Below, one piece after another: positions 1 to 32,300 of a stretch of 64,000 bases of DNA (positions within the stretch are counted from its first letter, which is position 1; every line of letters begins with the position of its first letter). Source of the stretch: Eutreptiella sp. 'Long Island Sound 2002' (Eukaryota > Euglenozoa > Euglenophyceae > Eutreptiales > Eutreptiaceae); assembly GCA_964036045.1 (NCBI GenBank), contig OZ038380.1:118554699-118618698 (forward strand). Reading direction: 5' to 3'. The notes under the pieces were generated by a model that saw nothing but the letters and a program-made list of their open reading frames with translations, searched no databases and was not told the origin of the DNA. A program made the translations under genes and the position numbers.

Positions 1-1149
1 GCATCACACCGCCTCACTGCCTAGGGGCAGTGGGCGGTGGGACTCTTGCAATACACTGCCTCACTGCATGGGGGTAGTGAGCCATGTAACCCCTACAATG
101 CATGGCCTCATTACCTGGGGGCAGTGGGCAGTGCAATTCCTGCAATATAGCGCCTTACCACTTGGGGGCAGTGAGCAGTGGGACTCCTGCAATACATCGC
201 CTCACTGCCTGGGGGCAGCGGGTAGTGGGACTCTTGCAAAGCACTGCCTCATTGCCTCGGGGCAGTGGGCAGTCCAACTCCTGCAACGCACTGCCTCACT
301 GCTTGGGGGCAGTGGGTAGTAGAACTGGTGCAACACAGTGCCTCATCTTCCTAGTGGCAGTGGGCCGCGGGACTCTTGCTGCGCACTACCTCATTGCCCG
401 GAGGCATAGCGCGGTGGGACTGCTCGAATACAGTGCCTCACTGCCTGGGGGCGGTGGGGTGCTACTTCTGCAAGGCGCTGCCTCAGTGCCCGGGGTAATG
501 GGCAGTGCAACTCTTGCAATGCGGCCTCATTGCTTGGGGGCAGGGGCCGTGGGACTTTTGCAACGCACTGCCTCATTGCCTGGGGTCAGCGGGCAGTGCA
601 ACTCCTACCAAGCACTGCCCAAGTGCTTGAGGGCTGTGGGTAGTAGAACTCGTGCAGCAGAGTGCGTTGCTGCCTGGAGGCAGTGGGCAATGCTACTCCT
701 GCAATACAGTGCCTCGCTGCTTGGGGGCGGTGGGGTGCTACTACTGCAAGGCGTTGCCTCACTGCCTGGGGGTAGTGGGCACTGCAACTCGTGCAATGCA
801 CTGCCTCATTGCCTGGGTGCAGTCGGCAATGCAATTCTTGCAATACACTGCCTCACCGCTTGGGGCTAGTGGGTAGTGGGAATCTTGCAACACAGTGCCT
901 CACTGCCTGGTGGCAGTGGGAAATGGAACACTTGCAACACACTTCCTCATTGCCTCGGGGGAATGGGTAGTGCAAATCCTGCAATACACAGCCTCACTGC
1001 CGGGGGGCAGTGGGCAGTGCATTTCCTGCAACACATCCCCTCACTGCCTGGGGGCAGTGGGCAGTGTAACTCCTGCAGCACAGTATCTCACTGCCTGGGC
1101 ACAGTGGGCAGTACTACTCCTGCAATACGCTGCCACACTGCCGGGACTG
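1..1149 (+). repeat. 47-bp minisatellite, forward-oriented half
   Basis: About 24 imperfect copies of a 47-bp unit (for example the CACTGCCTAGG and CACTGCATGGG starts lie at 15 and 62). Each unit holds CACTGCC and GGCAGTG arms separated by a few bases, so each can fold into a small hairpin. The unit has few stops and 47 is not a multiple of three, so long open frames run through it in several phases, including one of 255 codons. Those frames are repeat by-products and I do not call them genes. Confidence 0.9.
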
Positions 1150-3454: not shown

Positions 3455-5435
3455 CAGGATTAGGCAACTATGGGGCCCCACCGGTGAGGACTTGGCCGTT
3501 GTTAGGTCCGCATGGGTTGGTTGAACAATCACAATTTTCGGGAACCCTAACCACCCCCGGGGAACCTTGGGCTTTTGTTGGGTGATCATTTGTTGACAAT
3601 CAGAGTATATTTGAAGCCATGGTGAGCCAGGTAGCACCAACTAAGCCCATTTAGTGGGGCTTATTGGCCCCTAAAAGAGTTTTTCTCCGCCTCTTTGTAA
3701 TCTAGTAGGCAAAAGTTGGATGCCCATGGTAACCACTGTGCGTTGATTCAGACTTTCGTCCCATTCCACTTTTTTTTTCTATGTAGACTCTTAACCAATG
3801 ATGAGCTCCCGGGTGCTATCTTCAAGTTTCTTAGATTGGCCCCCTATGGGGCCTCAGCAGTGAGGAATTGGTCATTTTCATGTTCGCATGGGTTGGCTAA
3901 AAACCACCATTTTCGGGTGACCCTTGACAACCTCTAGGGACCCTTGTGCTTGTGTTCGCTGATCATTCGGTGACAATGAGGGATTGTATAAAGCGATGGT
4001 GAGCCATGTAGCACCCACTAGGCCCATTGAGTGGGGCATATTGGGCCCTAAGGAATGTTTTTCGGCTTTTTTGCAGCCTAGTGGGCAAAAGTTAGTTGGC
4101 CCATGGTGACCATTGTGAGTTGATTCAGACTCTTGTCCCATTCCACTTTTTTCTTCTTCATAGGCCCTCAAGGAATGAGGAGATCCTCGGTGCTACGTCC
4201 AAGTTTCTTAGATTGGCCTATGAAGCCCCACCCATGAGGATTTGGCTATTTTTAGGTTTGCATGGGTTGGCTGAAAAATCACACTTTTTAGGTGACCCTT
4301 CACAACCCATGGGGATCCTTGTGTCCTTGTGTGCGGATTATTTGGTGACAATCAGGGTAAGTTATTCAGCCATGGTGAGCCATGTAGCACCAACTAGGCC
4401 TCTTTAGTGGGCCCAAGGGTATTGTTTTTGGCTTTTTTGCAGTCTAGTGCGCAAAAGTTGGTTGGCCCATGGTGACCAGTGTGAGTTGATTGAGACTCTC
4501 GTCCCATTCTATTTTTTTCTTTAATCTAGGGCTCTCACCAATGAGGAGGTCCCGGGTGTTATCTTTAACTGATTGATTAAGTTTCTTAGATCGACCCCCT
4601 ATGGGGTCTCGCCGGTGAGGATTTGGCCATTTGCAAGTCCGCATGGGTGGGTTGAACAATCACAATTTTTAGGTGACCCTTGACAGCCAACATGGACCCT
4701 TGGGCTGTTGTTGGCTGACCATTTGGTGACAATCAGGGATTGTATTGAGCCATGGTGAGCCATGTAGCACCAACTAGGCCTATTTAGTGGGGCTTATTGG
4801 CCCCTGAAGGCGTTATTTTTGCAGCCTGGTGGGCAAAAGTTGGTTGGCCCATGGTGACCATTGTATGTTGATTTAGACTCTCGTCCCATTCCACTTTTTT
4901 CTTCTATATAGACTCTTAACCAATGACGAGGACCTGGGTCTTGTCTTCAACTGATTGATTAAGTTTCTTAGATTGGTCCCCTATGGAGCTCCACCAGTGA
5001 CGATTTGACCGTTTTTAGGTTCCCATGGGTTGGTTGAACAGTCACAAATCTCAGGTGACCCTTGACAACCCCCGGGGACGTTTGGGATGTTGTTGGCTGA
5101 TCATTTTGTGACAATCAGGGGAGGCATAAAGCCATGCTGAGCCATGTGTAGCCCCAACTAGGCCCATTTAGTGGGGTATATTGGCCCTTGAAGGTGTTGT
5201 TTTTGGTTTTTTTGCAGTCTAGTGGGCAACCCTTGCTTGCCCCAAGGCCAATCATTGTGTGTTGATCTAGACTGTCGTCCCATTCCACCTTTTCCTTCTC
5301 TACAAACCCTTAACCAATGAGGTGGTTTTGGGTGCTATCTCTAAGCTTCTTAGATCCACGCCCTATGGGGTCTCAGCGGTGATGATTTGGCCATTTTCAG
5401 GTGCACATGGGTTGTCTGAAACATCACAATTTTTG
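3455..5435 (+). repeat. ~375-bp tandem repeat array, copy 1
   Basis: About five tandem units 365-395 bp long. The phrase CTAGTGGGCAAAAGTTG recurs near 3703, 4078, 4442, 4822 and (diverged) 5217. Each unit also has a conserved CCCATTCCACTTTTTTCTTC block and a GGTGACCCTTGACAACC block. Short open frames are repeat by-products. The array stops near 5,435; the same unit reappears at 13,028 in the same orientation. Confidence 0.88.
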
Positions 5436-5892: not shown

Positions 5893-5917
5893 CTTAGGCG
5901 GCCCTTTACGCACGTAG
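5888..5917 (+). repeat. Element A left end: 5-bp duplication and inverted repeat
   Basis: ACCGT (5888-5892) is followed by the 25-bp end starting CTTAGGCGGCCCT (5893-5917). The reverse complement of 12392-12416 matches it at 24 of 25 bases, and ACCGT recurs at 12417-12421. This is the signature of a cut-and-paste insertion. Confidence 0.95.
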
Positions 5918-6110
5918 ACTTCGTTGCTAAAAGGCACGATTCATGGCAATTTCAACATCCGTTTTTTGCCCCCCAAACAAGCATATCAATTTTTTGGCCA
6001 AACCCACGTGGATTTTCATCGTGGGATACAACAACCTTGCCTTTTGTTGCTTCCAGAGGTGTACGTATACACCCCCTATTCCGGGCTGAAAATTGTATCA
6101 TTTAAACTTT

Positions 6111-6130
6111 TTGGGCACTGCAGTGCCCAA
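6111..6130. promoter_or_regulatory. Element A palindrome 1 (perfect)
   Basis: TTGGGCACTGCAGTGCCCAA, a perfect 20-bp palindrome with three more matching T/A pairs outside it. It lies 218 bp inside the left end and upstream of the transposase gene, as expected of a protein-binding site. Confidence 0.85.
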
Positions 6131-6351
6131 AAATTTGAAATGGCTTTTTTCAGTGGGTTCTCCAGTACACCTCTGTAGTCATCTCCACAGGTGATGTCAT
6201 ACTGCAGCAGCATGCATCAAAACTTGGCATACCCGTTATCCATGGGTCATCGCACCGCGGTGTTATACTCGGAAGGCCACGTACAATGTACCTTACCCAA
6301 TCACTTCCATTCCTGCCCAAATGTGCACTTGAAAATGGACTTCAAGTTCTT

Positions 6352-6371
6352 TTGGGCACTGCAGTGTCCAA
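6352..6371. promoter_or_regulatory. Element A palindrome 2 (one mismatch)
   Basis: Same site with GTGTCC in place of GTGCCC in the right arm, 241 bp after the first copy and upstream of the transposase start. Confidence 0.82.
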
Positions 6372-6670
6372 AAAATTTAAAACTCCGTATTTCACTCCTA
6401 TTGGTTCCCATTGCGTAACACCTGACAAAGGACGTATGAAACATCGGACGTTGGTACTCATCCTTTGCTCATTGGAAATATGTTGCCGGTTGTTTGACTG
6501 CCACCTTGGAGTGTACCCAGGCTTTGGAACGTCCCACGTCCATTGGGGGATACATTGTTTGGATCTTCGCTAGCTGCTTTTGGCCTATGCCGCATCAGGT
6601 TTGTTTTGTGATAGTGTCTCTGTTTTCTTTGTCTCCTTACCTTTGCTGCCTGCGAACAGGACTTTTGTCC

Positions 6671-8979
6671 ATGGATGCGGCTCCCTTCCGGCAGTTCCTT
6701 AGTTCGAAGGTATATGCTTCAAAGGAGGATCTATCTGAGGCTGTGGGTGTTGATAAGGGTGCCGATGCGTTTTGTACGTGGGTGTTAGATCTCCGGTTGG
6801 AGTGGAGAAGTAGGCGGTCAATTGGTGAATACATCCAACAAAGGGACAGGCGGACCGTTAATTGTCTGCCGGACCAATGGTTCCGTGTTGCTGAGCAAGA
6901 GATTTTTAATATATGGTGTGTTCTACACAAGAGGTGTCGTCCACATGCCAAGAGGGCTGTAGGTGTTCAACCCAAGAGTCGTGTGCAACGTAGGTGTTTG
7001 GCTCACATGGGTCAATGTTCTTACAATGTACCCTCCTTTGCAGTTCAAGGAGCAACTGCGTGCACCAGTCTTTGGCAGACCTTGGAAGGTAAAGCCGCTG
7101 TTCTATGGTTTGATAATCCTTATAGACGTAACTTCCGGCCCGTGCCTGGTAATGAGAACCGGTCCCTTAATTGTACAGCTGGTGCTATCATACTCTTGAA
7201 ACGACCTGTCGACATTATGCCGTCTTTTCCTAGCCTCTCGGTCTTGCGGCAGAGGATTGGGTACACTGCAGACTTGTTGGTGCAGAGCCATAAAAACTTC
7301 ATTGATGGCTTGCAAGCGTTGATGGACGACCCCATCCGCCTTCAACATGTTCGTTGTCCCTTGGACATACGACGGGATAATGTTACCAGCCCAGCTTGGA
7401 CCCCCTTTTTTCTCACAGACCTAACTCTGTCCGCCACCCCCGACCTTGTCTCTATTATTCACGGGCTCCAGGAGGTGCAGCAGCACACACAGCACCGTCT
7501 TCCATTGTTGGTCGACGAAAATATTCACTACCGTGTCCTTAAGCTCGTTTACAGCATCAGCTATGCTCGGTACAACGTGCCCCTGTTCATTACACGTACC
7601 CCGGTAGTGTACGGCACATGGCACCCATATAAATATTGTGTAACCCTGTGCTACAGAAGATTCTTCCCTTTATTTACCTATTTTTCCTATGGTTCACTCA
7701 ATTTGGGCACTGCAGTGCCCAACTTTCCGAAACTCATCTATATGGAGCGTATGATTCTGGTGCTCTTGCACTTGGCCCATAAGTGGCGCCAACCTTTGGA
7801 ACAGAAGTTACAGACTCTAAGGGGTTTGCACCGACCGGGTAACGCTAATCACAGCACACTTCTTACACAGGTGCAAGGGTTGGTAACACTGCTGTATGGT
7901 TACATTCCAGCCTTGTTTATTATTGGGTCGCAAGTGAGGGATTGTCATTGGTCTGCACAGGGAGAGCAGCACGCTGCAGGGCCATTGTTGAGCCGTTGTC
8001 TACACGTCCTTCTGAGGCTCACCCTAGGTTATGAGGACAAGGTTGAATATGTGCGCACCATTGTTGTTGCTAGGCTGTTGTGGTCCCAGTGGTTTGCCCG
8101 CTTACCTGGGGTGGCACACAGTGAGGAACCGTGTGAGGCCCTGTTAAGCCGTGTTGTGCACTTAATGGCACAACACCCTGGGAACTGGACGTTGCAACAG
8201 GTGCATGACCTGTTTATACTCACTCCCGTTGCAGACCAGACCCCAAAGGACCTGCAGTACGTTAATGTTCCCAAGGGACTGCCACAACTGGTTGATCGTC
8301 GTTTCACCAGATTGATGGCGCGATTCGATGTTGGTGTTATACCCCCCCTGGTCTGGTCCAGTCAGAAGTCGAGTATCGTGCAACACAGGTGGGATCCTGC
8401 CAAGATGGATTTTCCTTGCGCACTAGATACGGTGCTCACTGCAGAGCATTACCGAGATCTATGTGCCAAGACATTGCAGACACTTGTTAAACTTGTTAAA
8501 GTTGATGCTGATGTGATGACAGCCCTTGGTAGACACGTGCCACAGCGTCCTCCAGGTGATATGGACACAACAGTAGCACAGGCACAGGACATGTTACGCG
8601 CATGTAATACACCAGACCGGTACAAGCGACGCCGGCCAGCACGCGCTTTTGCGCAAAGGGACCCCGCCCGGATACCCGCCCCCCCCAATGCTGATGGCGA
8701 CAGTGACAGTGATGAGGACCCCCCCCCCCCCTGCTGGTGGGGCAGCCGGGGATCCAGACCTGAGGGCTGCTGATTTTGTGGGTGATGATGGATGGGACCC
8801 GGACCCCCCCCCCTCCAGAAGCAGTGTCTGTTCACAGTGATGATTCCGACGCCCCCGTGGCTGTCCTTTCGGAGCTGAATGAGTTTGACCCTCGATTTTT
8901 ACCAGGTGCATCCGACTGTGATGCTATTTCTGCCATCTGTGTTCAATCGTCGAGCGCTGCCAGTAGTCATCAACATTAG
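6671..8979 (+). CDS. Element A transposase-like protein
   Basis: About 769 codons if two frame shifts at C runs (8719-8731 and 8804-8813) are bridged; the uninterrupted frame ends at 8773. The ATG at 6671 is chosen because it follows a possible splice acceptor and because motif spacing then matches the homologue in element B: WFDN Asp at residue 148 (B: 150), LVDENIH Asp at 282 (B: 282) and HSEEPCEALLSR Glu at 485 (B: 489). I infer these as a D-D-E catalytic triad with an insertion domain before the Glu. Other shared blocks are LNCTA, VYGTWHPYKYCV and EYVRTIVVARLLWSQW. The C-terminus is proline-rich then acidic and ends HQH. A perfect element palindrome lies in frame at 7703-7722. It probably cuts and joins the element ends in the nucleus. 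The superfamily is not recognised; homology to B is certain, the enzymatic role likely. Confidence 0.82.
7703..7722. promoter_or_regulatory. Element A palindrome 3, inside the transposase frame
   Basis: A perfect TTGGGCACTGCAGTGCCCAA read as LGTAVP in the transposase frame. The homologous protein segment in element B has almost the same length, so the site was fitted into coding sequence without a net insertion. Confidence 0.85.
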
Positions 8980-9060
8980 AAGCCTGTAAATCAACAATTT
9001 GCAGCCCTGTGGCCTTTTGTAGTGTGTCGTGTGACCCTTTGTTAGCCCCTTTGCTAAGCT

Positions 9061-11735
9061 ATGCCTTCGGATACCGAACTGCCGGAAGGGGATGAGCAGC
9101 AGACCGCATCGCAAGCCGTTCACACAGCAGAGAAGACACGGGCGCAGTCGGGGCAGGCTCCAGTGAAGCGGACAGGGACAGACCGGGCAACAGAAACATT
9201 CCGGACAACGTGGATCAAAAAGGAGCTGGTCAAGATACAGCTGACCAAGATAAAGTTTGACACCGACCTCACGCGTGGGCAGACCAGAGAGAGGGACGAG
9301 GACTCAGTACTATCGCGGATCGCAAGCCTGAGGACAAATCCACCCTGCCGGCCTATCTCAAACATTCTCATATGGCGAAACGAAGGTACACTACCATCCT
9401 GTCACACACGCGTCGTAATTTTCACACAGTCTGGTCGTTTGGGAACTGCAGTGCCCATCTCGCTGATATTCCCCATCTACCATCTCCCTGTGGTGCATTT
9501 TTCTATCAGCTGAAATTCCCTACTGCTTGGGCGGGGCTCATATCCTGACGGCACTCCAAAGACTTCACCGAGAATACTGTGAGAAGTCACGGGCACTGCC
9601 GGACTGGTTACAACACGTCTACTGCGAGGAGATCAGACACGACTGTCCTGTTGACATCAGAGAGATTGTTGGAGGCGATCACAATGCGGTACAACACTCA
9701 GTGAGCAAGCTGAGTATGGGACAAGTGGCTGCTCGAATTTGGACCGAAGTGCAGAAGGGCAAAGCGAAAGAGATGCTGCTGGTGGCTCTGCGGAGGTGTG
9801 GCCGGCTGGGCGAGAAAACATCTGTGGTATGAGAGATGCACGATGAGACCACCGTTGTCAGTCCTTTGCGTACATGTGGCCTGTCCAACACTGTATCCCT
9901 GCCGGGACTCAATCTAGAAAAATTGGAGACCGCTGGTCTCATTACTGCAGATATCTGGTGGCCGCGTGGCTGAGTTTATTGACACCTTTGAGAAGACTGC
10001 CGGTGAAGGTATTATGTCCTCTGAGCACCTGTTTTCGTCGTCTTTTGGTGTTCATGGGAACTGCAGTGCCCAAATTCGATGCGACCCTAATTTTTGCACT
10101 GCAGTGCTCAACCCATACACTCTGCGGCCGTTGACGGGACTGCATGGCGACCAGATGGATGAAATACTGCTGTACATGGCTGGAGATGGGGCCAAGATCG
10201 CAGGACTACATGCCAAGGCCAGACTGTTGAAGCGGGACCGCCTGTGGGAGATGCTGTACCTTCACCCGGACAACACGCTCATCCATCCTTCTCGACGTAT
10301 GTTTATGGGGCGGCAGGGTCTGGCGCGATCGCTGTTGACCCCCCCCCCCCCCGAACCCACGACGTAAGGCTGTTTCGATCCCAGTGGTACCAGTGGTCTC
10401 CTGTTCTAACAGTGAACGTGCATGAAATGCAAAGAGTCCGCAAACTGCTTGCAAAGTCGCCGAGGGCCGCCAAATTGTCACTGGGGAAACGGACCTGGAG
10501 TGCCGAAAATCCCTTACCAAGCTGGGACACCATCCAGAAAGCACCGCTGTGGCAGGATGAGGAATGGGCTGACCTGAGGATTGCGCTGGCGAGGCTTGTC
10601 AAGGAAACTGCGGTGACAACAACTGATGGGGAGAAATCAACAACTATCTGGCTCAACAAGCCGCAGGATGGGACTGAAGCAACCGGAGCTCGGGCAGAGG
10701 CAATTGCGTTGGTTCCTGGCAAGGCCATCCCGTATACGATTGCATTGAGGGAGTACAAAGCGGTATGCAACCATTAGGCATAATAAACGGATCGATTTCG
10801 CATTGCTGGTCACTTTAGGCACTGCAGTGCCCATCTGTAATGAAATGTGCTTTTGACAACAGGTCTTCATTGAGTGTACGAAGGAACAAATGGACGATAT
10901 CCATCCCCTGGTGCTGAAGGTTGCTGCGAAGTTGGTACCTGTGGCTATTGGTGGAATGGCGGCCGATGTTAAGTTCCTGGTTAATCAATTGCGCGACTTT
11001 GAGGAGTGTGGAGGCTGGCAGTATATTATGACCTCTTTTTTTGATCAGGCAGTCGGTCACCCGACCTATCGGTTTGAGGAGAGGACTATTTGCTTCTGTG
11101 TCCCCGACAAGTTTAGGGTGAAGGTCCCGAATATTTTCATTTGCGATCAGGGTGCATACGGCAGCACCATTGGTCTGACAGCGGCTGGTTGGCTCCTGCG
11201 TGTGCTTGGTATTGTTCCCCGACGCGACAGACAGTCCGAGGATGAAGTCTGGCTCCTGCTTTTGACAGCATCGGCTGTATTGCTAGCACAGCTCCTGTCC
11301 TGCCTTCCTGAGTCCCCCTGTCTGGTAGCTTGCTTCACTGGGCGCCAGGGTTTGTTTAACGAATTCTGTGAACAGCTAGCGGCGTATGTGCAGGAGATGG
11401 ACTGTGTCTACTTGGTTAACTGGGACGCTTGGATGCCAAGGATTAGGGACTGTATGCCAGTTGTGGTGCAGCGGCCTGGGGAAGGGGAAGATGAGGAGGG
11501 GGGGGACGATGTGGAGGAAGAGGAGGAGGAGGAGATCATGCTGGTCGGTGGTGGTGACAGCAAGAAGAGGAGCACCCCCAGCAAGAAGAAGCCGTCCTCC
11601 GACGACAGTGGGGATGAGGTTGATGATCCCCCCAAAAGGCCAGCCAAAAAGGCCAAGGACAGTACCCCCCTCAATATGTTTCACGCCAAAGTAGGTCACG
11701 CCAAGGGTAAGAAGGCTCCACCAAAGAAGAAGTAG
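9061..11735 (+). CDS. Element A second gene, six inferred exons, charged C-terminus
   Basis: I infer exons 9061-9385, 9510-9826, 9951-10008, 10105-10296, 10413-10762 and 10863-11735. All introns begin GT and end AG, all phases agree, and the coding total of 2,115 nt is exactly 705 codons including the TAG stop. Introns are 96-124 nt. The product (about 704 residues) has a lysine/arginine-rich N-terminal region, a middle part with no motif I recognise (it includes GGWQYIMTSFF), then an acidic run near 11,490-11,535, a TPSKKK block, LNMFHAKV and a lysine-rich tail. The tail suggests a nuclear DNA-binding or accessory protein. By analogy with two-gene transposons such as En/Spm, it is my candidate for binding the element palindromes, three of which lie in its introns. 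A decayed relative lies at 2441-3320. Confidence 0.75.
9439..9458. promoter_or_regulatory. Element A palindrome 4, intron 1 of gene 2
   Basis: TTGGGAACTGCAGTGCCCAT, an imperfect copy, lies within the inferred intron 9386-9509. Confidence 0.75.
10054..10073. promoter_or_regulatory. Element A palindrome 5, intron 3 of gene 2
   Basis: ATGGGAACTGCAGTGCCCAA lies inside the inferred intron 10009-10104. Confidence 0.75.
10096..10107. promoter_or_regulatory. Palindrome core spanning the intron 3 acceptor
   Basis: GCACTGCAGTGC, the 12-bp core only. The AG that keeps the reading frame (10103-10104) is the AG of this core, so the palindrome centre doubles as a splice acceptor in my model. Confidence 0.55.
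10815..10834. promoter_or_regulatory. Element A palindrome 6, intron 5 of gene 2
   Basis: TTAGGCACTGCAGTGCCCAT lies inside the inferred intron 10763-10862. Confidence 0.78.
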
Positions 11736-11861
11736 ACTGCGTTGTGCGGTTGGCACTGCCCGTGACCATGTCAGTAGTTTTTTCGCCTCGATTTGCACAC
11801 TGCCGCGCGTCCTGTTCTATGCAGGTGTGAGACTGGTGCCTTTTTTCATGTTTTGGTAATT

Positions 11862-11881
11862 TTGGGCGCTGCGGTGCCCAA
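11862..11881. promoter_or_regulatory. Element A palindrome 7, 3' flank
   Basis: TTGGGCGCTGCGGTGCCCAA, with two changes in the core, lies 127 bp after the stop of gene 2. Confidence 0.75.
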
Positions 11882-12192
11882 ACTCAGCGACTCGCCCTTT
11901 TTTTTACCCCTGCTGGGCCATTTCTTTTGCAGTCATTGTTGTTGTCATTTATTATTGGATTGCCTGCACTGGCGGCGCCTCCGTTGTTGGTCGGCACCAC
12001 TGGTGGTGCATCATTCTTGACGCTTCGCATACAATCACAGTGACTGGGTCAGCAGTCGCGGTAACAAAAAGCAAACCAGACTTTTGCATGTGTTTGCCTG
12101 TCGTCCTCCTTGCTTCATTTTTTAGGTTGCATTTTACGGCATGGTTTGAAATGCAGCAGCGGATGATTTGGAAGAATTGGGTTTTTCTTTGG

Positions 12193-12212
12193 ATGGACAC
12201 TGCAGTGCCCAA
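12193..12212. promoter_or_regulatory. Element A palindrome 8, near right end
   Basis: ATGGACACTGCAGTGCCCAA lies 204 bp inside the right end, similar to the 218 bp between the left end and the first copy. Confidence 0.8.
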
Positions 12213-12391
12213 ATTTGAAGGGGATACATGACTTTTGACTGGCACATGTTGTACCCCCTACACACAGTCATTTTGGACAATTCACAGGTTTTTTGGGGTG
12301 TTCTCTGCAAAGCACAATTGTGCAATTTTTCAAAGTGGTTTTTCAGCCCCCGTTTTGGGGTGGTACCCATTTGGGAACTGTGGCAATTTTG

Positions 12392-12421
12392 CTACGTGCG
12401 TATAGGGCCGCCTAAGACCGT
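12392..12421 (-). repeat. Element A right end: inverted repeat and 5-bp duplication
   Basis: The 25 bases at 12392-12416 end GGCCGCCTAAG and mirror the left end with one mismatch. ACCGT follows at 12417-12421. Confidence 0.95.
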
Positions 12422-26539: not shown

Positions 26540-26720
26540 AACCCAGTTAAAAAAAAGTTTTTTAAAATTTTTTTACTAGATAATAATTTACTAGGTTCAC
26601 TAGTTTTTTACTAGGTATTGGGAACCTAGTTAAAAAAAAAGCTTTTCTACTAGGTTTCACAACCTAGTGAAAATTTTTTTACTAGGTTTCAGAACCTCCA
26701 AAAACAAAAGAATTAGGCTT
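26540..26720. repeat. ACTAGGTTT short repeats, A/T-rich
   Basis: Repeated ACTAGGTTT and its complement among T and A runs. The same motif lies just downstream of element B at 32,133-32,300. Confidence 0.6.
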
Positions 26721-26739: not shown

Positions 26740-27150
26740 GTTGGCCACTTCTGATCTTGTCCCCCGCTCTAAGGGGCTTTTTTCCACCGGCCCGGTGAGG
26801 CAGGGTGGTCTTGTAGGACCGATTTTTTTTTGTTCAGGGCCGCCATTAAGGACCCCCACTATGGGATTTTTTCCCGGAGCCCGGCACGGGCCACTTTTGT
26901 TTCCCTCCCCTTATGTAGTGGAGCCCCCAGAACACAGGGGTGACATAGCACTTCCACCCTCTTTTGGGCCCCCGAGAAGGGAGGGGTGAGGCAGCCACTT
27001 TTGATTTTGTTCCCCAATGTTGGGGATCCCCGACAATGCAGGGGTGATGTAGCAATTCCACCCTCTTTTGGGCCCTCGAGTGGCAGCCACTTCTGATTTT
27101 CCTCCCCTTTGTTGGGGATCCCCGAGAATGCACTTTTGCCTCCCACTTTC
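26740..27150. repeat. ~100-bp minisatellite, second site
   Basis: Same TTCTGATTTTGTCCCC and CCGAGAAGGGAGGGGTGAGGC blocks as at 17.4-18.0 kb, about three units with spacing of 80-110 bp where intact. Confidence 0.75.
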
Positions 27151-27167
27151 TTTCCTTTTTTTTTACC

Positions 27168-27325
27168 CCCATGCTTTGTAGCGTGGCCCCTCGAGTTGGG
27201 GTTAGGGACTCACAATCCACGCTTTGTTGCATGGCGCCTTGAGTTGGGTTTGGGGACTCACAATCCACGCTTTGTTGCGTGGCCCCTCGAGTTGGGATTA
27301 GGGACTCACAATTCACGGCTGGGAA
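27168..27325. repeat. 48-bp minisatellite (CCCCTCGAGTTGGGG), site 1
   Basis: Three units of 48 bp. Because 48 is a multiple of three, the frame repeats a 16-residue phrase (FVAWPLELGLGTHNPR). The same unit occurs at 41.29-41.60 kb. Confidence 0.85.
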
Positions 27326-27627
27326 TTTTGCTTGAACTAGTAGAGGGCGAAAAAACTGGTTTTCACCCCATGTGTCTATACTCAAAATACTCAGTTTTTC
27401 CAGAAGAAACCAATAATGGATGAAAACCAAATTAGACCAAACATCAATACCACCCTTGTGCATAGGTATGTCAAAGATGGCTCATACCCTAGCGGGCAAA
27501 ACAATGCTTTTGCAAGTGGAAGGTCATGGTTTCAAACACCATTGGGGGTAATGTGCAAAGCCTTAGGTTGGGTCATGGACATCATGGGAAAATTTTTATT
27601 TTTGTGTTTTTTTGTTTTCTTTTTGTG

Positions 27628-27860
27628 CTTTGATTTTGTCCCTTTTGTTGGCGATAATCGAGAATGCAGGGGTGACATAGCATTTCCTCCCACCCGTGGG
27701 CCCCCAAAAGGCAGGGGTTAGGCAGCCAATTCTGATTTTGTCCCCCTTTGTTTGGGGATTCCCGAGAATGCGGGGGTGACGTAGCATTTCCGCCCTTTGT
27801 GGGGCCTCCAGAAGGCAGGGGTTCGGCAGCCAATTCTGATTTTGTCCTCTTTGCAAACCC
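27628..27860. repeat. ~100-bp minisatellite, third site
   Basis: CTGATTTTGTCC blocks at about 27628, 27729 and 27832 with intervening CCCGAGAATGCGGGGGTGAC. A run of 13-14 C follows at 27857-27870. Confidence 0.75.
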
Positions 27861-27879: not shown

Positions 27880-27975
27880 GGTTTTCGAAACATACATGAA
27901 CTCCTTCTTCACAACATGCATGGTTTGGCCTGGGTGGGGCGCCACTGGCAACAGTGGCCGGGAATGGACCAAGTA
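27880..27975 (+). repeat. Interspersed block at the element B insertion site
   Basis: TTTTCGAAACATACATGAAC...GTGGCCGGGAATGGA is repeated, diverged, at 34,110-34,200. Element B is inserted at the end of this copy. Confidence 0.6.
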
Positions 27976-28000
27976 CTTAGGCGTCACAAGTTGCCCACCC
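27971..28000 (+). repeat. Element B left end: 5-bp duplication and inverted repeat
   Basis: AAGTA (27971-27975) followed by a 25-bp end beginning CTTAGGCGTCACAAG (27976-28000). The end is matched perfectly by the reverse complement of 32103-32127. Confidence 0.96.
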
Positions 28001-28180
28001 TCTAGGACCCCGTATACGCGCGATTTGACAATATTCTACATTTCTACTTTGAGTATGTTATTTGACGTATGTGACCAAAGTTGTTGGCAGAGCTGTGTGA
28101 CACCCGTTGAAATACGTGTTGATGTGTTAGCCTTGTGTATACCCGTCTTCTAGTGTGTTGTATTTGACTTTTTTCTGAAG

Positions 28181-28481
28181 CTGGCCGAAATTTCGGCCAG
28201 GTTTTGGGTAACATTGCAAACAACTATGTGTATATGCAGTTTTTGACCCTTCTGGCCGAAATTTCGGCCAGCTTTTTGGTTTCCTGGTGAATAGGCATGA
28301 TTATTTTAATTTTTCTTAGGGCTGGCCGAAATTTCGGCCAGCTTTTTGGTCTGTTCACTATTCAAGCACTTATATTCTGGTTTTTGGGTGGGCTGGCCGA
28401 AATTTCGGCCAGCTTTTCCTATTGTTGAACATGTAAGCAATTATTTCCCCTTTGAACACACCTGGCCGAAATTTCGGCCAG
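28181..28481. promoter_or_regulatory. Element B 5' palindrome cluster, five sites at ~70 bp
   Basis: Five perfect copies of CTGGCCGAAATTTCGGCCAG at 28181-28200, 28252-28271, 28322-28341, 28393-28412 and 28462-28481. Spacings are 71, 70, 71 and 69 bp while the sequence between them is not repeated. The cluster ends 71 bp before the transposase ATG at 28553. This looks like a phased operator or transposase-binding array. Confidence 0.93.
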
Positions 28482-28552
28482 CTTGCAATTGTCGTTGTTC
28501 ATGAGTATTACACCATACACTCCTACATAACTATTTTCTTGTCTCAGCATTA

Positions 28553-30764
28553 ATGTCTTCTGCTATTACTGTCAATGTTGTACATGCTGCAGTTACTGGT
28601 GCTTTTGCTACTACAGCCACAGGGCTGTTGCGAAATGCATTACGTGGTGGGACTCTGCAAAAGCTTTTGCAATTGTGCCTCTTCTTGCGGAAGAATCGCA
28701 GGAGCCGGCACTCCCTGACACAGCTGAAGGCCGCCGCCACTGAGAAGAAGCCCCCACGATGGTACTTGACATTTTTGTCACAGTTCCATGCCCTATACTG
28801 CCTGCTGCGCCGTATGGCCCTCCCATACTCTAACTGTGGGTCTGGTTACAACTGGGGTATTATGTCCTGCCGCCAACGCCGTAAGGTAGGAGTCCTTGGT
28901 CAGTGTAACACTAAGCAGGAGTCCATTCACCATCGTGCTGGACTAGCAGCACACAACTTGTGGAACACCATGCAACGTAGGCAAGTTTGTATATGGTTTG
29001 ATAACCTGAGGCGTTACAGGTCGGGAGCTGATCCCCATTCACCCGACTTAACCCTAAATTGTACAGCTGTTGCTGTTTTGCACACTACTGCCCTACCTGC
29101 ATACCGGGGTCTGCCGGAGCTGGCCGAAATTGAGGCCAGGGTACCAAAGGTTGCTGATGACATCTTTCGCTCACATAGAGCATTGTTTGATAGTATTGAT
29201 GTTGCCAACCAAGGTATTCAGAGAGTTTGGGTTCGTGCTCCTTTGGATATTGCCAGAAAAAATGTTCGTTCCCTCAACTGGAGACCCTTTTTCTTGTCTG
29301 AGCTCCGCTCCGGCACACACAAAGAGCTTTTGCAACTTGTGGTTGATTTGTCATGTGTGGAACACCGCACCAGACACTGTGTTCCGCTGCTTGTGGACAT
29401 GAAAATACACTTTGCCCTACTTAAGCTGTGTTATGGTGCTGCTTATGTTCCCTGGAATGTACCACAATTACTGTTGGGTTTTCCTTTGGTGTACGGAGTA
29501 TGGCATAGCTATAAGTATTGCGTTGAATTGATCTACAGGGCGTTCCTGCCGTTCATTAAGTTTTTGGAGCAGGGGAACAGCCTTCAGGTTGGGTCTATCC
29601 TCCCTCGCAAGGTCAAGGTCATCCATATGGAGAAGACGTTGCTTGGACTCATGCTAGCCACATCGTCCAATAGAGGCAGACTAGATGAGCGCGTCACTTC
29701 CCTGCTCAACAGCCAGCGGGACCTGACACCCATTCAGCGCAAGGGTTTGCGTATGTTATTAGCCCTTAAGGCTTTGCTGTACACATACTGTCCAGCTGCT
29801 TTTAGCATTGGGACTTTGGTTCGTGAGTGCAACTGGGAGGGACGGGGGGCAGGTTCCGGTATTGTAGCTAAGCAGGCACTTGAGATGTCCCTACTGCTCA
29901 TGCTGAACATCCTAAAGCCCGAGGAACAGTTAACCACGGAGTATGTGAAAACCACCGCTGTTGCTCTTTTGTTTTGGAGTCAGTGGCATTCCGCCTCCCT
30001 AGGGTGTATCCACTCTGAGGAGCTGGGTGAGGCACTTCTGAGTCGGTTCTCAGCCCACTGTCGCCGCAACACTGCCTGTACTAGTGTCCAACAGTCGTCT
30101 GATTTATTTCTGACACTTCCCCCTGTCCAACCGGGAGAGAAAGTTTTGCGTGGTGTGCTGACTGAGAGATCCGTGGCAATGTTCTCTGCCAATCTTAAAC
30201 AATTCATCTTGACAGCCCATACACAGAGCCTGCCCATTTGTGTTCCCGTTCCGGACTATAAAGTTGAGGTGAGAAGACTGGATGCAGTTGAGGATTTGAC
30301 GTTTCCCGGTACCATGTCTAGGACACGAATCACCACAGACCGTTTAAAAGTGGTTCTGTTGCATGCAATGCAAAATCTGGTTGCGCGTACCAGGGTTCCT
30401 GAGGGTGTTGAGGATTTTTTACAGACAAATGCACCTGCCCGCACTGCTGCCGAGCAAGGGGTGTTGCGTACTGCACATGCTTCTATTCGCACTGCCAACC
30501 GTGCACCGCCTGCTGCTGCTGCTGCTGCTCCTGGTGGAATTGCCTTGCCCCCAAAGCCACCCCCGAAGCCCCGAGCCAGAGGCCCCCCAGTACCCCCCCC
30601 CGGGCCCCCCCCGCCCAGTACCCGCCCCCGCCCTTGATGATTCCATTGCTGTCGACTCTTGTGATAGTGACCAGGATATTGATTGTGATGCAGACAGCGT
30701 TGCCTCCTTTGAAGCCCTAGATGAGGCGGAACACATCGGTGTGGATACCCAGGATTGGGACTGA
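28553..30764 (+). CDS. Element B transposase-like protein
   Basis: The frame is open from ATG 28553 to 30637. An acidic tail (DDSIAVDSCDSDQDIDCD) continues one frame over to a TGA at 30764, with the shift falling in C runs at 30593-30612, as in element A. Together this gives about 737 residues. Candidate catalytic residues are Asp150 in IWFDN, Asp282 in LLVDMKIH and Glu489 in HSEELGEALLSR; their spacing matches element A almost exactly. Shared blocks also include LNCTA, VYGVWHSYKYCV and EYVKTTAVALLFWSQW. It should recognise and cut the element ends. Both members end in a poly-proline then acidic tail. A diverged element palindrome sits in frame at 29120-29139. The superfamily is unknown to me. 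Confidence 0.85.
29120..29139. promoter_or_regulatory. Element B palindrome inside the transposase frame (two mismatches)
   Basis: CTGGCCGAAATTGAGGCCAG, read as LAEIEAR. The left arm and 18 of 20 bases match the flank palindrome. The position in the protein differs from that of the internal site of element A. Confidence 0.7.
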
Positions 30765-30779
30765 TTTCTGTTTGCAGCT

Positions 30780-31343
30780 GTGTTTGTCACTGTGGTATGG
30801 GTTCTGCCACGCATTGCCAGTGATTTTGGTGTGTCTATTTGCTGTTTCATGTGTGTTGTGTGTGCCCTTTTGGGTGAGGAGACTGTTGTGCCCGATGACT
30901 TTGTTCAGCTCATCAGAGCAGGTATCACCAACGCCGACACGTGCCCCCCCAAGTCATGGGAGGATGTGTACCACGACTTGGGGGCAGGTTTTCCTGTGGA
31001 TTGTTCTGGGGTTAGGTATGTAGATGAGGATCCTGAGGAGCAAGATGGGGAGGCAGAGTCGCAACCAGAGACACAGACTCCAAAGAAGAAACCCAAAACT
31101 GCCCCTGCCCCCTCACCCAGTGGCACGCAGTGCGCTCAGGCCACCCCAGCTTCCTCCTCAGGCACTGTTGCCCCTACTGGCAAAGGTATGAATACTTTTG
31201 TGAATCATTTTTCACCATCCCAGGGTGGAAACACACAGTCACAGAACTCTGCCACTGCCAAGTCTGGTGCTGCAGCCCCTGCCAAGCCTCCTGCTAACAC
31301 AGGTGCTAAGAAGCCCCGTGCATCTGGTCTGCGCAAGCGCTAA
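30780..31343 (+). CDS. Element B second gene, short charged protein
   Basis: An open frame of 187 codons that starts just after the transposase stop; a CAG at 30775-30777 could be a splice acceptor, so the true start may lie upstream. The order acidic stretch (DEDPEEQDGEAES), TPKKKPK, MNTFVNHF and a basic C-terminus (GAKKPRASGLRKR) parallels the C-terminal third of the second gene of element A, where the order is acidic run, TPSKKK, LNMFHAKV and lysine-rich end. Sequence identity is weak, so homology is inferred from order and position. A hydrophobic N-terminal stretch (VCFMCV-like, 30,830-30,880) is unusual. Probable nuclear accessory or DNA-binding protein of the transposon. Confidence 0.6.
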   Translation: MFVTVVWVLPRIASDFGVSICCFMCVVCALLGEETVVPDDFVQLIRAGITNADTCPPKSWEDVYHDLGAGFPVDCSGVRYVDEDPEEQDGEAESQPETQTPKKKPKTAPAPSPSGTQCAQATPASSSGTVAPTGKGMNTFVNHFSPSQGGNTQSQNSATAKSGAAAPAKPPANTGAKKPRASGLRKR

Positions 31344-31382
31344 TGCCAGTCCTGCTGCTTATATTGCCTGTCAGCATGAAGT

Positions 31383-31402
31383 CTGGCCGAAATTTCGGCC
31401 AG
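31383..31402. promoter_or_regulatory. Element B palindrome, 3' flank site 1
   Basis: A perfect CTGGCCGAAATTTCGGCCAG 40 bp after the stop of gene 2. Confidence 0.9.
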
Positions 31403-31615
31403 CATGCAGTCCTCAGCCTCTTCAGCCTTTTATTATTGTGTTTCCCCATAGGCACTGCAAAAGTCTGCTTTGATTCGTCAGGTGGCAAGTATTTGCTTGT
31501 AATTGAGTATATTATGTTGCACACCCTGTTCAAATGTCACTGCTCCTGTGTTCCTTGCTCATGTCTACTGTCTTAGGTACCCATTTCAGTGATCATATTC
31601 GGAGTTTCGATGGAC

Positions 31616-31706
31616 CTGGCCGAAATTTCGGCCAGCTTAGGCCTGTCTGTCAAATAGGACCATGTGTTTGGACATTTTTCGAAGAGCTGGCCGAAATTTC
31701 GGCCAG
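31616..31706. promoter_or_regulatory. Element B palindrome pair, 3' flank
   Basis: Perfect copies at 31616-31635 and 31687-31706, 71 bp apart, repeating the spacing of the 5' cluster. Confidence 0.92.
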
Positions 31707-32102
31707 GTTGGTTAAAATAGGAAATACAAGTACATGCTTTGGGATAGTTTTTTGTGTGCTTTAATGAAAGGTATGTTTGGGGTTCCCACATCTGTGGTGT
31801 ATAGGGGGGTTTCTGTGATCAACTTCGAACAAAGGGGAGAGAAAAATAGGCAGCCCCCCCCCCCCCCACTGGAATGCAGTGGTCTAAATGTAAAACAACA
31901 CTATATTTTGGTGATTGAATGTCTTTATTTTGAAAATCTGTGTGTTTCCAGAAATGCAAATAATGGCATATATTTGAAATATACACCTTGCTTTTGCATG
32001 TTGCCACCAGGGGGGTCTGGGTACCCAAAAAATAACACCCCTTTTCACATACTTTCCCCCTCATTACAACATGGACTTCCGTGGGCCATAGCGCCAGGTG
32101 GG

Positions 32103-32132
32103 GGGTGGGCAACTTGTGACGCCTAAGAAGTA
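32103..32132 (-). repeat. Element B right end: inverted repeat and 5-bp duplication
   Basis: The bases at 32103-32127 end TGTGACGCCTAAG and mirror the left end perfectly over 25 bp. AAGTA follows at 32128-32132. Confidence 0.96.
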
Positions 32133-32300
32133 AGGAAAATTTTTTGACCTAGTAAGGAATTTTTTTTCAAATTTTTGCTTTTTTTACTTCGTAGAAAAAA
32201 GGTTTTGAAAAAACTTGAAAAAATTTTTTTACTAGGTTTTACTAAATTTTACTAGGTTTTACTGCATGTTACTAGGTTTTACTACAGCGCATACTAGGTT
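32133..32300. repeat. ACTAGGTTTT short repeats
   Basis: At least five TTACTAGGTTT copies in A/T-rich sequence, the same motif as at 26.54-26.72 kb. Confidence 0.6.

Follow-up and report, generated by a model that had tools for sequence, protein, structure and literature searches.

A repeated palindrome and the element that carries it

What is a 20-bp palindrome doing five times over, at nearly even intervals, directly upstream of a probable transposase gene? The question arose in a 64,000-nucleotide stretch of the genome of Eutreptiella sp. 'Long Island Sound 2002' (contig OZ038380.1, positions 118,554,699 to 118,618,698; hereafter the window). A preliminary description, made from the letters alone, had reported five identical palindromes and two further copies downstream. 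Both observations were borne out: the five 5′ copies of CTGGCCGAAATTTCGGCCAG are exact and start 71, 70, 71, and 69 bp apart, and the two 3′ copies are exact and 71 bp apart (Table 1). The window also holds an eighth exact copy (site 6) and a copy with two mismatches, CTGGCCGAAATTGAGGCCAG, inside gene 1, neither of which the preliminary description mentions. No match to CTGGCCGAAATTTCGGCCAG with three or fewer mismatches occurred in 100 dinucleotide shuffles of the window, and the 2.28-Gb genome contains 6168 exact copies, compared with none of the reversed control. A hairpin in RNA or single-stranded DNA was rejected on an argument from the sequence, CTGGCCGAAATTTCGGCCAG being a palindrome without a loop. 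Dimeric proteins usually have DNA sites of this loop-less palindromic form.

Table 1. Coordinates of the features discussed, in the window unless marked as positions in the majority sequence of 14 element B copies
Feature	Position	Strand	Remark
Element A	5893..12416	+	TIR CTTAGGCGGCCC..., TSD ACCGT
Element A palindrome sites, TTGGGCACTGCAGTGCCCAA	6111, 6352, 7703, 9439, 10054, 10092, 10815, 11862, 12193		nine sites with three or fewer mismatches, two of them perfect
Left target-site duplication (TSD), element B	27971..27975		AAGTA, read by eye
Left terminal inverted repeat (TIR), element B	27976..28000	+	CTTAGGCGTCACAAGTTGCCCACCC; 25/25 complementary to 32103-32127
Palindrome site 1	28181..28200		exact
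Palindrome site 2	28252..28271		exact
Palindrome site 3	28322..28341		exact
Palindrome site 4	28393..28412		exact
Palindrome site 5	28462..28481		exact
Gene 1	28553..30637	+	intronless ORF, 694 aa (P0001), probable transposase
Variant palindrome	29120..29139		CTGGCCGAAATTGAGGCCAG, two mismatches, inside gene 1 (ORF1)
Gene 2, 3′ part	30856..31343	+	Lys/Pro-rich C terminus; upstream exons deleted in this copy
Palindrome site 6	31383..31402		exact
Palindrome site 7	31616..31635		exact
Palindrome site 8	31687..31706		exact
Right TIR, element B	32103..32127	-	pairs with left TIR
Right TSD, element B	32128..32132		AAGTA, read by eye
Majority-sequence sites 5′ of gene 1	206-487		five sites
Majority-sequence sites between genes 1 and 2	2881, 2952, 3020		
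Majority-sequence sites in two gene-2 introns	3979, 4377		one per intron
Majority-sequence sites in 3′ region	5786, 6019, 6090		

All nine copies, eight exact and one variant, lie inside one transposon bounded by TIRs (27976-32127), which we call element B. Its termini are CTTAGG..CCTAAG, and each genome strand carries the exact TIR 449 times. From 34 TIR pairs, chosen by eye among 100 TIR places listed, we fetched 20 copies. Every one had a perfect 5-bp target duplication, and 12 were full-length (6.51-6.60 kb). A full-length element B (~6.5 kb) consists of 25-bp TIRs enclosing an intronless, transposase-like gene 1 followed by a multi-exon gene 2, whose exon borders we predicted by reading GT..AG and frame in the full-length copy L005. 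That copy carries one stop in each gene. The window copy is internally deleted, with ~2.4 kb gone, including most of gene 2. Its 187-aa ORF (P0003, 30780-31343) arose when the deletion fused two stretches: residues 1-24 match L005 4760-4831, and 26-187 correspond to L005 7213-7698. As judged by eye in the 20 sampled copies, sites per kb were not clearly higher in internally deleted ones.

Sites occupy the non-coding parts of element B

We aligned the 12 full-length sampled copies together with L005 and L010. The majority sequence of these 14 copies contains 13 perfect palindrome sites (Table 1), none of which touches an exon, although exons, with borders set by hand, account for roughly two thirds of the element's length. 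The probability of this arrangement would be ~5e-7 on the assumption of independent sites, which does not hold for duplicated ones. Intron 1 of gene 2 has no intact site. The variant CTGGCCGAAATTGAGGCCAG also occurs in the majority sequence, at 1145, and the identical 20 letters form one site in the relative L006 described below. At 30 TIR loci, some of which are the two ends of one element, a site with three or fewer mismatches was present within 700 bp inside the TIR in 27 and outside it in none.

Sites outlast their spacers in an older relative

The preliminary description had taken the identical sites as a sign of selection, had proposed aligning other copies to compare sites with spacers, and had regarded mutated palindromes as evidence against it. 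Among the 14 recent copies, divergence per cell outside CpG was 0.018 in sites, 0.024 beside sites, 0.020 in other non-coding DNA (a class that includes gene-2 exon 1), 0.025 in gene 1, and 0.019 in gene 2. No constraint is visible in these copies at sites, spacers, or genes, all of which decay alike. At CpG, divergence was 0.034 in sites and 0.056 in flanks. The TIR value, 0.005, is not comparable with the other classes because an exact TIR was the criterion by which 12 of the 14 copies were selected. Many copies do carry mutated palindromes; since sites, spacers, and genes decay about equally, these say little either way and do not refute a function.

At greater depth the alignment gave a different answer. 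L006 is a 3.9-kb relative with the TSD TACTA that lacks gene 1 and is 74-82% identical to element B in shared segments. It has 31 sites with four or fewer mismatches, 11 of them exact, many in segments that were amplified or inverted within L006. Over 11 segments aligned with element B, sites were identical at 599 of 639 positions (93.7%) and spacers, which here include some coding sequence, at 2458 of 3210 (76.6%). The difference persisted outside CpG (485/511 versus 2388/3084), and one letter was missing from L006 at sites, compared with 36 in spacers. As amplified segments are not independent, the computed p-values overstate the significance; four segments taken from distinct places in L006 (3364-3923, 1-487, 1525-2233, and 2237-2722) gave 228/240 for sites and 1533/1980 for spacers. 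This comparison with a single copy of a single relative supports the view that the sites were under selection. Support for selection comes at this older depth and not from the recent copies.

L006 also contains an open ORF for exon 1 of gene 2 (element positions 1827-2312, locus positions 4019-4504; 162 aa) that is 94% identical to P0088, a protein representing 32 sequences; it may represent a truncated regulator produced by non-autonomous copies. The peptides of P0088, P0092, P0094, and P0095 spell a palindrome, and we considered a third family with the same site in gene-2 intron 1. We dropped it: given the 94% identity of P0088 to the L006 ORF, these proteins look as if they come from L006-type elements. 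The 26-mer predicted from the peptides had no genomic match, and the 25-mer without the first base had 64, one of them in L006, directly after the truncated exon 1 of gene 2, which in that element is fused to the 3′ region.

A sister element carries a different palindrome

Element A, also in the window, resembles element B in gene order, TIR start, and TSD length. Its gene 1 product is 30% identical to that of element B, its gene 2 is 25% identical over exons 1-2, and exact matches to its left TIR number 76 on one genome strand and 95 on the other. Its palindrome differs, however. By reading, the nine TTGGGCACTGCAGTGCCCAA sites divide into four within gene-2 introns, a single one in gene 1, and two each in the 5′ and 3′ regions. 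The outer letters TGG.C are common to CTGGCCGAAATTTCGGCCAG and TTGGGCACTGCAGTGCCCAA, but we estimate that 4 of 10 half-site matches is not significant. A second element A copy (L062, 97% identical) has nine sites at matching places, mostly as the same variants, and no B-type site. The gene-1 frame holds one palindrome in both elements, perfect in A (7703-7722) and with two mismatches in B (29120-29139), at different places.

What might bind the palindromes

We favor, with a probability of about 0.5, the reading that the palindromes are family-specific binding sites of an element-encoded homodimeric protein, most likely the gene 2 product, that promotes the element's expression or mobility. Element B, a two-gene DNA transposon family, would make its own sequence-specific DNA-binding homodimer, and multi-exon gene 2 would encode the protein that recognizes the 20-bp palindromes. 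By binding at the ends, between the genes, and in the introns, this protein would coat the whole element. Coating could promote expression or mobility by keeping the element unsilenced, as VANC does on VANDAL, where an accessory protein bound to its motif lowers DNA methylation, and/or by helping the ends to meet, as TnpA does on En/Spm. We infer the binding of a protein, gene 2 as its source, and the effect of binding; a dimeric, element-encoded binder fits because the palindrome is non-coding, conserved, multiplied in the gene-1-less L006, and replaced in element A. Several findings count against this reading: gene 2 has no recognized DNA-binding domain, sites in the recent copies show no constraint, older conservation comes from a single relative, internally deleted copies are not clearly richer in sites, intron 1 of gene 2 has no intact site, and element A's sites are looser (2/9 perfect).

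A possible, though somewhat unlikely, alternative is that the gene 1 transposase itself binds the palindromes as subterminal repeats for excision and that gene 2 does something else. In Ac/Ds-like elements, the transposase binds subterminal repeats that excision needs. In favor of this alternative, element B has five sites close to its 5′ end and three close to its 3′ end, the eight sampled copies that are not full-length all keep the last two 3′ sites (five keep the whole 5′ array), and L006 retains both ends while multiplying site-bearing segments. However, 5 of the 13 sites are in mid-element, three intergenic and two in gene-2 introns, and the deleted copy L045 lacks the entire 5′ array.

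The palindromes could instead be promoter, enhancer, or insulator sites at which the element recruits a transcription or architectural factor of the host. We consider this unlikely. Five sites do lie directly upstream of gene 1, and the gain of one array unit in L055 and the loss of one in L058 have counterparts in enhancer arrays. Yet all 50 exact genomic sites listed (of 6168), compared by hand, lie between B-type TIRs, in one case a pair 13.5 kb apart (L007/L008), and none in this sample is at a host locus. That element A has its own palindrome also makes a binder travelling with the element more likely than a host factor, as sites would change more easily between sister families.

The proteins encoded by element B

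The gene 1 product is a putative transposase, a reasonable reading from context. Candidate D/D/E-like blocks, such as a DDE transposase with an RNase-H fold would have, were picked out by eye and are WFDN, L(V/I)DMK, and EE(L/Y)GEALLSR (mean pLDDT of the gene 1 structure model, 38). P0001 has no Pfam match, and a set of 18 relatives gave three weak Pfam hits, each from a single member; neither P0001 nor 17 relatives hit a hAT, MULE-type, Transib, or Ginger transposase domain. Ten long ORFs of the window likewise had no Pfam hits. A protein search that scored the best 8000 candidates listed at least 26 gene 1 relatives. Among those listed, sixteen (P0004-P0019) are 77-98% identical to the gene 1 protein, including P0004 (96%), which represents 267 sequences; nine (P0020-P0028) are 42-50% identical, and P0029, on a 2.6-kb contig, is 27% identical. 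One motif of the 42-50% group matches the genome 162 times, with several sequence types among the 100 matches listed.

A second palindrome, CAAAAGCTTTTG, lies in gene 1 at window positions 28658-28669 and occurs once in each of 40 sequences examined, some of them overlapping. It is coding and probably incidental.

Gene 2 had no Pfam match at E values up to 10 and no recognized DNA-binding domain, and its structure model (mean pLDDT 36) was uninformative. A GGxH stretch in exon 2 raised the suspicion of a ParB/sulfiredoxin fold, the sulfiredoxin fold being related to ParB. When a two-sequence gene 2 profile was compared with the PDB, six of the seven hits with E up to 10 were sulfiredoxin, over the expected region, with a best E of 0.36, which is not significant; the reversed control had no hits. 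An eight-sequence profile placed ftsY first (E 1.1) and sulfiredoxin second (E 1.8), a single gene 2 sequence had no hits, and no profile search returned ParB. A ParB/sulfiredoxin-like domain in gene 2 is therefore only hinted at.

Were the hint correct, the gene 2 protein might load at parS-like palindromes and slide or spread to coat the transposon, the palindrome changing with the protein between families, and a eukaryotic DNA transposon would carry a centromere-like system. We regard this version as improbable. Like bacterial ParB-parS partition systems, as far as the sources consulted describe them, element B has short palindromic sites, and the best PDB hit of the GGxH profile is sulfiredoxin (E 0.36). 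Unlike them, it has a gene 2 match that is not significant, no ParB hit, no known ParA, and a eukaryotic host.

Site spacing appears to be mostly inherited

According to the preliminary description, the ~50-bp spacers of the array are not repeated. Comparison of the 5′-array spacers in the majority sequence contradicts this: three adjacent pairs are 51-61% identical (z 3.2-3.5 relative to shuffles), and three non-adjacent pairs have z values of 1.2-3.2. The spacer on the 3′ side is similar to two of the four 5′ spacers (z 3.1 and 3.5). Since adjacent spacers are residually alike, the 5′ array looks like an old tandem duplication with diverged spacers, and the ~70-bp spacing appears to be mostly inherited from it.

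We consider it very improbable that the palindromes are functionless by-products of neutral tandem duplication of a ~70-bp unit. Such duplication would account for the residual similarity of the spacers and for the varying number of units, but the comparison of L006 with element B shows far stronger conservation at sites than in the spacers around them, and some sites stand alone in introns and in the 3′ region.

A phased protein array or nucleosome-scale architecture had also been proposed. In its favor, the seven short gaps of element B vary little, measuring 68-71 bp, and they keep helical phase (R(10.5) = 0.79, p about 0.012), although most descend from one unit and are not independent. 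The other observations do not support it well. The 23 short gaps of L006 are centered on 70 bp, yet they range over 62-78 bp and show no helical phase (R(10.5) = 0.27, p about 0.18); gaps close to 70 bp are missing from element A; the array spacers share descent; and copies differ by a unit gained in L055 or lost in L058. Strict helical or nucleosomal phasing was rejected on the L006 and element A gaps, and we consider a functional spacing, whether a phased filament or a nucleosome-sized array, very improbable even though the cluster at 2881, 2952, and 3020 keeps gaps of 71 and 68 bp between dissimilar spacers (z 0.2).

Element B compared with known transposon systems

The closest documented way of working that we found, in a source consulted in part, appears to be that of VANC21 on VANDAL21 in Arabidopsis, a resemblance and not a membership. 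The portion consulted reports that VANC21 binds introns, intergenic DNA, and terminal non-coding parts of VANDAL21, that VANC targets are often tandem repeats and vary between related transposable elements, and that the VANDAL21 motifs are YAGTATTAC/T (PMC5735166). Compared with that account, element B likewise has family-specific, tandemly repeated motifs in terminal, intergenic, and intronic non-coding DNA, with repeats gained and lost, and pairs a transposase-like gene with an accessory gene. Unlike VANDAL21 as described there, its site is a 20-bp palindrome, its TIR is CTTAGGCG, and its TSD is 5 bp. Gene 2 was set against VANC through Pfam only and had no match.

In En/Spm (CACTA) elements, the accessory protein TnpA binds subterminal repeats at both ends, with a 12-mer as its motif. 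Element B is similar in having two genes, arrays of short sites at both ends, and a predicted accessory binder; unlike En/Spm, it also has sites in introns and the intergenic region.

Membership in known superfamilies was examined as well. Transib and Ginger elements have TSDs of 5 and 4-5 bp, respectively, and CAC or TGT termini; element B begins with CTTAGG and has no Pfam-recognizable transposase. It also lacks a MULE-type transposase Pfam domain, a feature of the Mutator-like elements, including VANDAL. In the part consulted of a further source, CACTA/EnSpm elements have CAC..GTG termini and a 3-bp TSD, KDZ (Zisupton) elements have an 8-bp TSD, and hAT families with a 5-bp TSD ('hAT5') exist (PMC12730594). 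By that account, element B, with CTTAGG..CCTAAG termini and 5-bp TSDs in 20/20 copies, fits neither of the first two; it shares the 5-bp TSD with hAT5 and lacks a Pfam-recognizable hAT transposase. No matching element was described in the literature searched, which was seen in part and had most subscription papers and Repbase outside its scope.

In this abundant transposon family, the sequence itself reveals where an element-encoded protein is likely to bind, and two sister families differ in these target sites. If our preferred reading of a gene 2-encoded homodimer is true, VANC would be joined by a second, seemingly unrelated system in which to test the co-evolution of a selfish DNA-binding protein and its targets, and each family would offer a 20-bp site/protein pair for targeted chromatin work.

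Other repeats in the window

TTTTACTAGGTTT-type repeats flank element B at 26606-26696 (~1.3 kb to its left) and 32227-32286 (0.1 kb to its right), perhaps as a surrounding, older insertion. Four copies of a 104-bp repeat lie in 26908-27847, and a tandem repeat of 48 bp occupies 27169-27317. Positions 1-1900 form a long, degenerate minisatellite whose units resemble CACTGCCTCACTGCCTGGGGGCAGTGGGCAGTG and run in both orientations.
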